DNA of 64,000 nt from Xanthobacteraceae bacterium (lineage in GTDB: Bacteria; Pseudomonadota; Alphaproteobacteria; Rhizobiales; Xanthobacteraceae): contig JARBUD010000007.1 of NCBI GenBank assembly GCA_029239875.1, positions 124,001-188,000 of the forward strand, given 5' to 3'. The notes under the pieces were generated by a model. The model was not told where the DNA came from. It made no database searches and saw only the letters and a list, made by a program, of their open reading frames with translations. Positions 13,696 through 60,910 of the stretch are shown piece after piece; positions within the stretch are counted from its first letter, which is position 1, and every line of letters starts with the position of its first letter. A program made the position numbers and the translations under genes.

Positions 13696-13758
13696 CTGGC
13701 GGCGCTCCGGTCTCTCGCGATAGCCGGGGACGCCCACGCGCAGACGCTGCGCGGCCCC

Positions 13759-13820
13759 GACCTTTTAGCAACCTTGTTTAGCGTGGCGGCAAGCCGGCCG
13801 GCTCAAAGGACCACGTAAGG
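13759..13820 (-). promoter_or_regulatory. SAM-II riboswitch (metA motif) before metZ
   Basis: On the minus strand the leader reads ACGTGG, then TTTGAGCCGGCCGGCTTGC, GCCACGCTAAACAAGG and TGCTAAAAGG. This matches the SAM-II pseudoknot as known from Rhizobiales met genes: the P1 strands CGTGG/CCACG, the conserved TTGAGCCGGCCGGCTTGC and the A-rich 3' end that closes P2. SAM-II usually shuts off translation initiation. It lies in the divergent gap with the dCTP deaminase gene. Confidence 0.9.
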
Positions 13821-13900
13821 CGGGATTACTCCCGTGCCCGGCTTGGCGTCAAGGGGCGCGTCCGTTAAACCGAACGGAACAACCCATCGGAGAAACGGCG

Positions 13901-20448: not shown

Positions 20449-20543
20449 GGGAGGTTGGCGGTGGACGAGCCACTCGCCAACCGGGTCAGGTCCGGAAGGA
20501 AGCAGCCCCAACGAGCCCGGATCGGGTCTCTGTCCAGCCTCCC
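20449..20543 (+). ncRNA. ffs: Signal recognition particle RNA (4.5S type)
   Basis: About 95 nt. The conserved domain IV core GGTCAGGTCCGGAAGGAAGC is followed by AGCCC. The ends pair: GGGAGGTTGG (20449-20458) with CCAGCCTCCC (20534-20543), allowing one G-U. It binds Ffh for co-translational membrane targeting. It lies upstream of dnaX, the usual alphaproteobacterial position. Confidence 0.95.
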
Positions 20544-20623
20544 ACCTCATCCCGACTTTTGGCCGATGACGCACGCCGCTCCGCAAGGCGGGGCGTGCCG
20601 GTGGACGTCATCAACCAAAGCAA

Positions 20624-59537: not shown

Positions 59538-59570
59538 TTTCAGTATTACTGAAAGATTGTCCATCTTTCA
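59538..59570. promoter_or_regulatory. Two overlapping perfect inverted repeats upstream of ribB
   Basis: TTTCAGTA-T-TACTGAAA (59538-59554) overlaps TGAAAGAT (59550-59557) with ATCTTTCA (59563-59570). Together they present three to four copies of a TTTCA/TGAAA half-site. They end one base before the -35 element. A natural target for the Cro-like domain encoded by the gene itself. Confidence 0.65.
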
Positions 59571-59599
59571 TTGCCGCCTAATTCGGGGCGGCCTATACT
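59571..59599 (+). promoter_or_regulatory. ribB promoter, leaderless
   Basis: TTGCCG (59571-59576), a 17-base spacer and TATACT (59594-59599). The predicted start, seven bases downstream, is the A of the ATG at 59606. No ribosome-binding site exists before this ATG, which supports a leaderless mRNA. Confidence 0.65.
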
Positions 59600-59605
59600 C
59601 CCCTC

Positions 59606-60910
59606 ATGAAACTCGCGGACTGGCTCGCCACGACCGGAACGACCCGTAGCGCCTTCGCGCGCGCGGTCGGCCTGTCGCCGGCCAGCATCACCGCGCTGTG
59701 CAACGAAGACCGGGCCTGGGTCTCCCGCGAGGCGGGGGCGCGCATCGCCGCCGCCACCGGCGGGGCGGTGACGCCGAACGACTTTCTCGGGCTCGATAGC
59801 GTCGAGGTGGCATATATGAGCGACAATCTGCAGGCCCGCGTGGAAGCGGCGATCGAAGCCTTCGCCCGCGGCGATATGCTCGTCGTCACCGACGACGACG
59901 ACCGCGAGAACGAGGGTGACCTCATTCTCGCCGCGCAATTCGCCACGGCCGAGAAGCTCGCCTTCATCGTCCGCCACACCTCCGGCATCGTCTGCGCGCC
60001 GATCACGGCCGAGCACGCCAAGCGGCTGCGCCTCTCTCCGATGGTGAGCGACAACGACGCCCCGCACGCCACCGCCTTCACCATCTCGGTCGACTATCGC
60101 CACGGCACCACCACCGGCATCTCCGCCGACGACCGCACCGCCACCGTGCGCGCGCTCGCCAATTCCAATGCCGGCGCCGTCGATTTCGTGCGCCCCGGCC
60201 ACATCTTCCCGCTGATCGCCAAGGAAGGCGGCGTGCTCATGCGCTCCGGCCATACCGAGGCGGCGGTGGACCTGTGCCGCCTCGCCAATGTCGAGCCGGT
60301 CGGCGTCATCTGCGAACTGGTCAATGACGACGGCACGGTGATGCGCGGGCCGAAGGTCACCGAGTTCGCCAGTACCCACAAGCTCACCCGCGTCTCGGTG
60401 GCCGACCTCATCGCCTATCGCCAATTGCGCGAGAAGCTGGTGACCCGCACCGCCGAATTCGCCGCCCCGACCGTGGTCGGCGAGATGCACGGCATCTCCT
60501 ATGTCACGCCCTTCGAGCCGGTGAACCACATCGCCCTGGTGCATGGGAAGATCGGCGACGGGCGCGACGTGCTGGTGCGCCTGCACCGCGCCGACCCGAT
60601 CGGCGACGTGTTCACCGGTGGCAAGGCGATCCGCGCCTCGCTGGAGCGCATCAAGGCGGAGGGACGCGGCGTGCTGGTCTATCTGCGCGACGGCACCACC
60701 GGCGTGCCGGTCTCCAGCGTCGGCGGCGAAGAGAAGCTGGAGAGCTCCAAGCTGCGCGACCAGAACTGGCGCGAAGTGGGCCTCGGTGCCCAGATCTTGC
60801 GCGACCTCGGCATCTCGTCGATTCGCCTGCTCGCCTCCCGCGCCCGCACCTATGTCGGCGTGGCCGGCTTCGGCATCGAGATCACCGGCACCGAAACGCT
60901 GGACGTGTGA
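59606..60910 (+). CDS. ribB: RibBX-type 3,4-dihydroxy-2-butanone-4-phosphate synthase with an N-terminal helix-turn-helix
   Basis: 434 aa in three parts. Residues 1-62 form a Cro/XRE-like domain (RSAFARAVGLSPASITALC). Residues of about 71-275 are DHBP synthase, with the Mg2+/substrate loop DDDDRENEGD (96-105), HTEAAVDL, and other family marks. Residues of about 290-430 resemble GTP cyclohydrolase II, but the zinc Cys cluster is absent (LHRADPIGDVF in place of the Cys-containing stretch), as in RibBX. It should make the four-carbon unit of riboflavin only. A second start at 59816 (MSDNLQ) has GAGG eight bases before, so a RibBX without the HTH might also be made. Overlapping palindromes lie just upstream of its promoter. 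Confidence 0.88.
   Translation: MKLADWLATTGTTRSAFARAVGLSPASITALCNEDRAWVSREAGARIAAATGGAVTPNDFLGLDSVEVAYMSDNLQARVEAAIEAFARGDMLVVTDDDDRENEGDLILAAQFATAEKLAFIVRHTSGIVCAPITAEHAKRLRLSPMVSDNDAPHATAFTISVDYRHGTTTGISADDRTATVRALANSNAGAVDFVRPGHIFPLIAKEGGVLMRSGHTEAAVDLCRLANVEPVGVICELVNDDGTVMRGPKVTEFASTHKLTRVSVADLIAYRQLREKLVTRTAEFAAPTVVGEMHGISYVTPFEPVNHIALVHGKIGDGRDVLVRLHRADPIGDVFTGGKAIRASLERIKAEGRGVLVYLRDGTTGVPVSSVGGEEKLESSKLRDQNWREVGLGAQILRDLGISSIRLLASRARTYVGVAGFGIEITGTETLDV

Follow-up and report, generated by a model that had tools for sequence, protein, structure and literature searches.

The gene at positions 59606–60907 of the DNA analysed here (the window, a stretch of 64,000 nucleotides from a bacterium of the family Xanthobacteraceae) encodes the riboflavin biosynthesis enzyme RibB (DHBP synthase) with a helix-turn-helix (HTH) domain at its N-terminus, and it raises the question of whether an enzyme of this pathway may act as the repressor of its own gene. 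Self-repressing biosynthetic enzymes are already known as a kind, and a first-pass annotation of this DNA had proposed that this RibB is one of them. The control of bacterial riboflavin synthesis is usually explained by FMN riboswitches (PMC13028884).

Domain architecture of the HTH-RibBX protein

The frame, which lies downstream of aroC, is open from 59606 to 60907 and encodes 434 amino acids (aa), in which an HTH domain, RibB and a third domain, RibX, are joined. The unbroken frame from the HTH to DHBP synthase that the first-pass annotation described is therefore confirmed, and both of these domains had been read correctly, although the RibX domain that follows DHBP synthase had been overlooked. 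The HTH domain comprises residues 1–62 (59606–59791, + strand), with helices at residues 3–10, 14–21, 25–33, 41–50, and 57–60, and its delineation draws on Pfam, AlphaFold, Foldseek, and alignments. Four Pfam models, YdaS and three for HTH domains, match residues 1–70 with E-values of 0.002–0.007, none of the scores reaching its gathering cut-off and the best being 19.1 bits against a cut-off of 27. Other HTH-RibB proteins fall on both sides of these cut-offs: L100 is above that of HTH_3 (38.8 vs. 23) and L165 is below every one. The AlphaFold model of the HTH (22 sequences; pLDDT 85.7) contains five helices, of which 14–21 and 25–33 form the helix-turn-helix, and its nearest folds in the PDB, as found by Foldseek, are repressors of the Cro/C1 type (viz. 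the N-terminal domain of CapH, 7t5u, TM 0.73; Stl; the HigA-DNA complex, 6chv, TM 0.70; and SinR), with a best E-value of 0.035. Judged by its modelled fold, the N-terminal domain is thus a Cro/C1 (XRE) HTH, its resemblance in sequence being weak. The putative recognition helix, a helix in the model to which the fold assigns this role, consists of residues 25–33 (PASITALCN; 59678–59704, + strand), and S24, P25, A26, T29, L31, and C32 are invariant among 22 aligned sequences. The HTH of named Ancylobacter species is 78–89% identical to that of the window.

The DHBP synthase domain (residues 80–271; 59843–60418, + strand) scores 278.1 bits against PF00926 (E 3.9e-83; Pfam cut-off 26.4) and 244 bits against the RibB model TIGR00506 (cut-off 177.45), and it retains the acidic motif DDDDRENEGD, which is invariant in 22 aligned sequences. 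By these curated models and this motif the protein is a complete predicted DHBP synthase, and its gene holds the single PF00926 match found in the whole genome. The cysteines of GTP cyclohydrolase II (RibA) bind zinc. In the RibX domain (residues 281–429; 60446–60892, + strand), a degenerate GTP cyclohydrolase II that matches PF00925 with an E-value of 1.7e-28 and scores 41.9 bits against TIGR00505 (cut-off 205.85), these cysteines are absent: the stretch SECLTGD...RCDCG of RibBA (4i14) and GTP cyclohydrolase II (2bz0) aligns with RADPIGD and a gap. RibX is retained in all 19 aligned HTH-RibB proteins, which have RLHRAD at the position of the 4i14 cysteine stretch, and it is also found in HTH-less relatives, whose matches extend to residue 430–434. 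No Pfam match to a riboflavin kinase domain occurs in the 434 aa protein. The full-length AlphaFold model has a mean pLDDT of 57.3 and a poor mid-section, so that the geometry of a dimer cannot be read from it.

Some observations concern the supply of the pyrimidine precursor in this organism. RibX itself is the sole GTP cyclohydrolase II match in the genome of the window (G000), in which lumazine synthase is present. A search of five genomes of the same genus located a cysteine-bearing GTP cyclohydrolase II (L263) in two of them (G103 and G022) and none in G000, G084, and G062. In Sinorhizobium meliloti and Brucella abortus, ribBA is reported to be deletable without riboflavin auxotrophy, and the authors propose an alternative branch whose GTP cyclohydrolase III and RibB2 have yet to be discovered (PMC9478397). 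This branch may apply in G000.

Distribution of HTH-RibB

The 434 aa protein is matched in 118 of the 119 genomes of the family, and in 20 of them, among which G001 is broken, the match begins at residue 1. The match in G116 covers residues 242–433 only. When the first 70 residues were used as the query (E ≤ 1e-4), matches were obtained in 63 of the 297 genomes of the order. Fifty of these were read as HTH-RibB, 44 of the main type and six of a divergent type (f23); two more, G375 and G297, have 450 aa frames; and the remaining 11, none identified as HTH-RibB, include three HTH-CoaBC proteins and several small stand-alone HTH proteins. Outside the order, HTH-RibB was found in two genomes, G450 (L165) and G672. 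Besides Ancylobacter, the named carriers include Xanthobacter, Labrys, Bosea, Stappia, and Methylobacterium.

The analyses described below are based on 62 main-type loci, the window included (74 loci less six that are not HTH-RibB and six with another HTH type), and on a second set of 21 loci from named species; the two sets overlap in species (e.g., L194 and G103) and together make up the 83 main-type loci of the promoter counts. Within one genus (g128), both the HTH and the operator described below are absent in L215 (G232) and present in L092 (G331), a difference that, from these sequences, is a recent loss or gain. Apparent remnants of the HTH in HTH-less relatives (G004, G054, G047, G033, and others), where the match runs into residues 5–66, were rejected, as by eye they look like sequence upstream of the gene that is out of frame, and tblastn with the HTH gave no match at these places.

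The promoter and its candidate operators

The gene is preceded by a predicted sigma-70-type promoter, and the TTGCCG-17-TATACT reading of the first-pass annotation holds: the −35 element TTGCCG is located at 59571–59576 and, 17 nt after it, the −10 element TATACT at 59594–59599 (both + strand). With this spacing, transcription is predicted to begin at 59606, the A of the start codon, and the HTH-RibBX mRNA is hence predicted to be leaderless. Alignment of 72 upstream regions on the ATG (four of them from genes other than HTH-RibB and six from the f23 type) reveals TTG at −35 to −33, TA at −12/−11, T at −7, and C at −1. Among the 83 main-type loci, TTG occurs within −37 to −32 in 79 and C at −1 in 77, while TA is found at −12/−11 in 58; the −10 element is imperfect in many relatives, with TAnnnT exactly in place in 49/83 and within one base of it in 59/83. 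None of three Shine-Dalgarno tetramers was found before the HTH-RibB ATG in any of the 83 loci. Methylorubrum extorquens belongs to the same order as the host of the window. Leaderless mRNAs, with a 5′-UTR of 0 to 9 nt, account for 7% of the mRNAs of that species (PMC9320726, whose accessible text does not mention ribB).

Two candidate operators were identified at this promoter. Operator 1 is a perfect 17-nt palindrome, TTTCAGTATTACTGAAA, at 59538–59554 (−68 to −52 from the ATG), which is conserved upstream of HTH-RibB genes. The pattern TTTCAGTNNNACTGAAA, with up to two mismatches, has one match in the 64 kb of the window and none in any of 100 dinucleotide shuffles. Operator 2, TTTCATTGCCGCCTAAT, at 59566–59582, overlaps the −35 element, which lies inside it, and has five mismatches, its left half being retained and its right half degraded; in relatives the corresponding site is placed at about −39 to −42, with operator 2 as a whole extending over about −41 to −25. 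Both operators, at up to four mismatches each, are present in 52 of the 83 main-type loci, the window not being among the 52, and are spaced 27–28 bp apart in 39 of these; a further 16 loci have only the −35 site, 14 only the upstream site, and one neither. Operator 1 is often the better-matching site, as it is in the window; in the f20 group it is at the −35 that the perfect or near-perfect copy lies.

The first-pass annotation had described two perfect, overlapping palindromes here. Its letters are right for both, but the second, TGAAAGAT-TGTCC-ATCTTTCA (59550–59570), does not stand as an operator: it has perfect 8-nt arms and joins the right half of operator 1 to the left half of operator 2, but the four loci L003–L006 of the same genus do not keep the additional symmetry (by eye), and the site that starts 16 bases further on is conserved instead. 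This second palindrome is probably incidental.

Co-occurrence of the HTH and the operator

The first-pass annotation had proposed that, if the palindromes are operators, they should accompany other HTH-RibB genes, and this is what was found. The operator pattern TTTCAGTnnnACTGAAA, sought in the 160 nt ahead of HTH-RibB genes with up to three mismatches allowed, is present upstream of 60 of the 62 main-type loci (the window counted) and of all 21 loci in the second set; the two main-type loci lacking a clear site are L081 (four mismatches) and L095 (five). Over 300 nt before HTH-less RibB genes it was found in 0/62 and 0/39 loci (0/101 in total), the best site there having four mismatches; one genome is counted twice in the HTH-less set of 62, and L028 and L117 are both from G063. 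As the sequences are related, these raw percentages overstate independence.

The history of both characters was followed on a tree built with FastTree from the catalytic parts of 162 RibB proteins, from which 17 loci with a non-fitting motif (the HTH-RibB L076 and 16 HTH-less loci), L096–L099, L106, L107, L110, and 11 of the 21 named loci (near copies) are omitted. On this tree the main HTH undergoes eight changes, at least six of which are forced by supported branches, and the operator likewise undergoes eight; the operator is present in 68 of the 70 HTH rows vs. 0 of the 85 HTH-less rows. Independent pairs on the tree agree in five cases, oppose in none, and tie in about one, with a median sign-test p of 0.0625, a value limited by the fact that only about five pairs differ.

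HTH domains of other types are accompanied by other palindromes. The six f23 loci have a different palindrome, TATTAGCnnTGCTAATA, with arms TATTAGC/GCTAATA, located over the predicted −10; its arms are intact in four of the six and are off by one letter in L104 and by two in L100. In L214 (family f30), an unrelated XRE-type HTH is joined to RibB, with a palindrome GTTGCCA-AAA-TGGCAAC about 19 nt before the ATG, and this locus apparently represents a separate fusion event. In comparative terms, then, a palindromic operator at the gene's own promoter co-occurs with the fused HTH, tracks it across several families, and is not found without it, which supports the earlier proposal of repression of the gene by the RibB that it encodes.

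In 20 HTH-RibB genomes searched with up to one mismatch, 20 of the 21 distinct places with an operator are at ribB, and two further genomes have a ribB site with two mismatches. This concentration of strong sites suggests autorepression with a single target, the regulon of HTH-RibBX consisting of its own promoter. A wider regulon was sought at up to two mismatches and rejected: of 61 places in the 20 genomes, 28 are at ribB and 33 elsewhere, vs. 52 for a reversed control pattern, although weaker sites may exist.

A predicted internal start in the linker

Between the HTH and the DHBP synthase domain, a Shine-Dalgarno sequence, GAGGTGG (59804–59810), is followed at a 5-nt spacing by an in-frame ATG (59816–59818, residue 71; 59804–59818 in all, + strand), the predicted start of an HTH-free RibBX. 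Linkers were compared in 68 loci (the 62 of the main type and the six f23 loci). All 68 contain an in-frame ATG, GTG, or TTG, near the positions where the frames of HTH-less RibB begin. A Shine-Dalgarno tetramer with a start codon is present in 66 of the 68 linkers (it is missing in L004 and L100) vs. 128 of 766 windows of the same size in the same genes, a comparison whose Fisher p is not a true probability because the sequences are related. In 58/68 linkers the pairing with the anti-Shine-Dalgarno sequence reaches −5 kcal/mol or better, vs. 218/640 control windows with a start codon in them. When a similar tetramer measure was applied to HTH-less RibB genes, no more than 22 of 62 showed a Shine-Dalgarno sequence at a likely start, so that this measure is no sure mark of a start that is used.

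Codon usage in the linker points in the same direction. In 15 loci of the family, CGA encodes 16 of 22 linker arginines vs. 7 of 498 elsewhere, and AGA is found at residue 71 in nine of nine f20 loci vs. 0 of 304 elsewhere (L077, which completes the ten f20 loci, lacks an arginine at this residue and was omitted). The internal signal is thus written partly with arginine codons that are otherwise rare, which is most simply read as selection on a nucleotide signal. Together with the conserved Shine-Dalgarno sequence and start codon, this indicates that the HTH-free RibBX is probably translated alongside the full-length protein.

FMN riboswitches

The first-pass annotation saw no FMN riboswitch and concluded that another control device is needed. 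The observation is correct, as no RF00050 match is found in the window or in its genome, and control of the HTH-RibBX gene by such a riboswitch was accordingly rejected; the conclusion does not follow. FMN riboswitches were identified in just 18 of the 119 genomes of the family (the filters used lose some weak matches), and as their absence is ordinary, the lack of one here is not in itself a sign that something has taken its place. The 18 include none of the 20 HTH-RibB genomes of the family. The sole Rfam matches in the window are a SAM_alpha riboswitch (13745–13824, − strand) and a bacterial small SRP RNA (20449–20546, + strand).

A probable self-repressing enzyme and the alternatives

Given the operator at its promoter, which most HTH-bearing relatives share, the enzyme most likely keeps its own synthesis in check. 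We consider it highly probable that HTH-RibBX is a self-repressing biosynthetic enzyme, with a leaderless promoter of its own, operators 1 and 2, and a second, HTH-free product; that the protein binds DNA and represses, how it dimerises, where transcription begins, and that both forms are translated are what we infer from the sequences compared. DHBP synthase is dimeric. The gene would be transcribed from its sigma-70-type promoter into an mRNA that begins at the A of the ATG, and the full-length protein, presumably as a dimer held by its DHBP synthase domain, would occupy operator 1 (59538–59554) and operator 2 (59566–59582). Since operator 2 covers the −35 element, its occupancy would exclude RNA polymerase and so cap the amount of enzyme. 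The Shine-Dalgarno-led start in the linker (59816) would yield HTH-free RibBX from the same mRNA, and the two starts would separate the supply of the repressor from that of the enzyme. By default this would be homeostasis based on concentration, with no ligand involved.

It is conceivable, though we think it rather unlikely, that repression is gated by a ligand, as in BirA or RbkR, with a flavin, ribulose 5-phosphate, or a product bound in RibB or RibX switching DNA binding; the first-pass annotation had likewise raised the sensing of a substrate, flavin, or FMN. The retention of RibX in the 19 aligned HTH-RibB proteins, with RLHRAD in place of the cysteine stretch, would suit a sensor, and the genome yielded a single DHBP synthase gene; however, RibX is present in HTH-less relatives too and is thus not tied to a repressor function, and related HTH domains fused to unrelated enzymes (described below) fit simple sensing of dose better than gating. 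Much less likely still is that a separate transcription factor binds the palindromes, the fused HTH being a structural relic or binding elsewhere. L106 (around 500) encodes a stand-alone small HTH of the same type, possibly the unfused form, with the TTTCAG-type palindromes TTTCAGCTTGACTGAAT and TTTCAGTTTGGCTGACA upstream, and one further HTH match, a weak one, occurs in the genome of the window (G000:C16:105558, E 2.3e-4). Against such a factor, the HTH and the operator are gained and lost together on the tree, different fused HTH types go with different palindromes, and other targets would be expected of it, yet 20 of the 21 strong sites are at ribB. The possibility that HTH-RibBX is an activator that uses operator 1 as an upstream activator site, for which the often better match of that site (about −68 to −52), in the window as elsewhere, might be taken, is likewise a slight one: operator 2 overlaps the −35, the f20 group has its perfect or near-perfect site on that same element, and the f23 palindrome overlaps the predicted −10.

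Related systems and other HTH-enzyme fusions

The protein shares with RbkR, an archaeal riboflavin kinase with a repressor domain that represses riboflavin genes, the plan of a flavin-metabolism enzyme that carries its own DNA-binding domain and acts on riboflavin genes; it differs in being a bacterial DHBP synthase rather than a kinase, in its Cro/C1-type HTH, and in its apparently single target, its own promoter. BirA and NadR are bacterial enzyme-repressors of cofactor synthesis that respond to ligands and control several genes. They too combine an HTH fused to an enzyme with palindromic operators, whereas HTH-RibBX has no clear second target in 20 genomes. Stand-alone Cro/C1 repressors and HigA antitoxins have the same fold and operators over the core promoter, but the HTH of the window is joined to a metabolic enzyme. 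The enzymes HppE and HEPD (1zz9, 6b9r) contain a domain that aligns with the HTH model in Foldseek; they are different enzymes from RibB. C-terminal to residue 77 the architecture is that of RibBX/RibBA, to which the N-terminal HTH, the operators, and the predicted leaderless promoter are added, with RibX lacking the zinc cysteines.

No HTH-RibB was described among the literature matches listed, which comprise titles and the beginnings of abstracts and mostly fall outside subscription journals, and term counts in the accessible text of two reviews of riboflavin regulation (PMC12542839, PMC13028884) gave neither "helix-turn-helix" nor "RbkR." Within this searched literature, RibB as a self-repressing enzyme, its Cro/C1 class of HTH, and the leaderless two-start layout are not described. 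If our reading is correct, many Hyphomicrobiales have an alternative control device for the riboflavin branch, the protein is a natural case of an enzyme that gauges its own amount, and two starts provide a simple way of setting the dose of a repressor apart from that of an enzyme. More tentatively, the Cro-like HTH may be a portable self-repression cassette of Alphaproteobacteria, carried by at least six proteins (viz. RibB, CoaBC, glutamine synthetase, MeaB, a nitrate-reductase-delta-like protein, and a carbamoyltransferase), each of which would be a dose-sensing autorepressor; at least in RibB, a leaderless and an internal Shine-Dalgarno start would give the repressor-enzyme and its HTH-free form from one mRNA. 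Should the same HTH act likewise on other enzymes, this would be a general and little-noticed regulatory design.

The fusions to proteins other than RibB are as follows. An N-terminal HTH of the same kind is found on CoaBC (Flavoprotein and DFP domains) in three f32 genomes (L097 and L098 by Pfam, L099 by sequence only). Related HTH domains are present on glutamine synthetase in L172, L181, and L255 (Pfam), with L176, L180, L256, and L257 alike by sequence; AACCAAAACGG ... CCGTTTTGGTT lies just upstream of L176, and no palindrome is obvious by eye for L255–L257. A related HTH also occurs on a nitrate-reductase-delta-type protein (L169), on an aspartate/ornithine carbamoyltransferase (L258), and on the MeaB GTPase (L177 by Pfam; L183 and L188 alike by sequence), where TTAACC/GGTTAA-like palindromes are seen by eye directly before the start.
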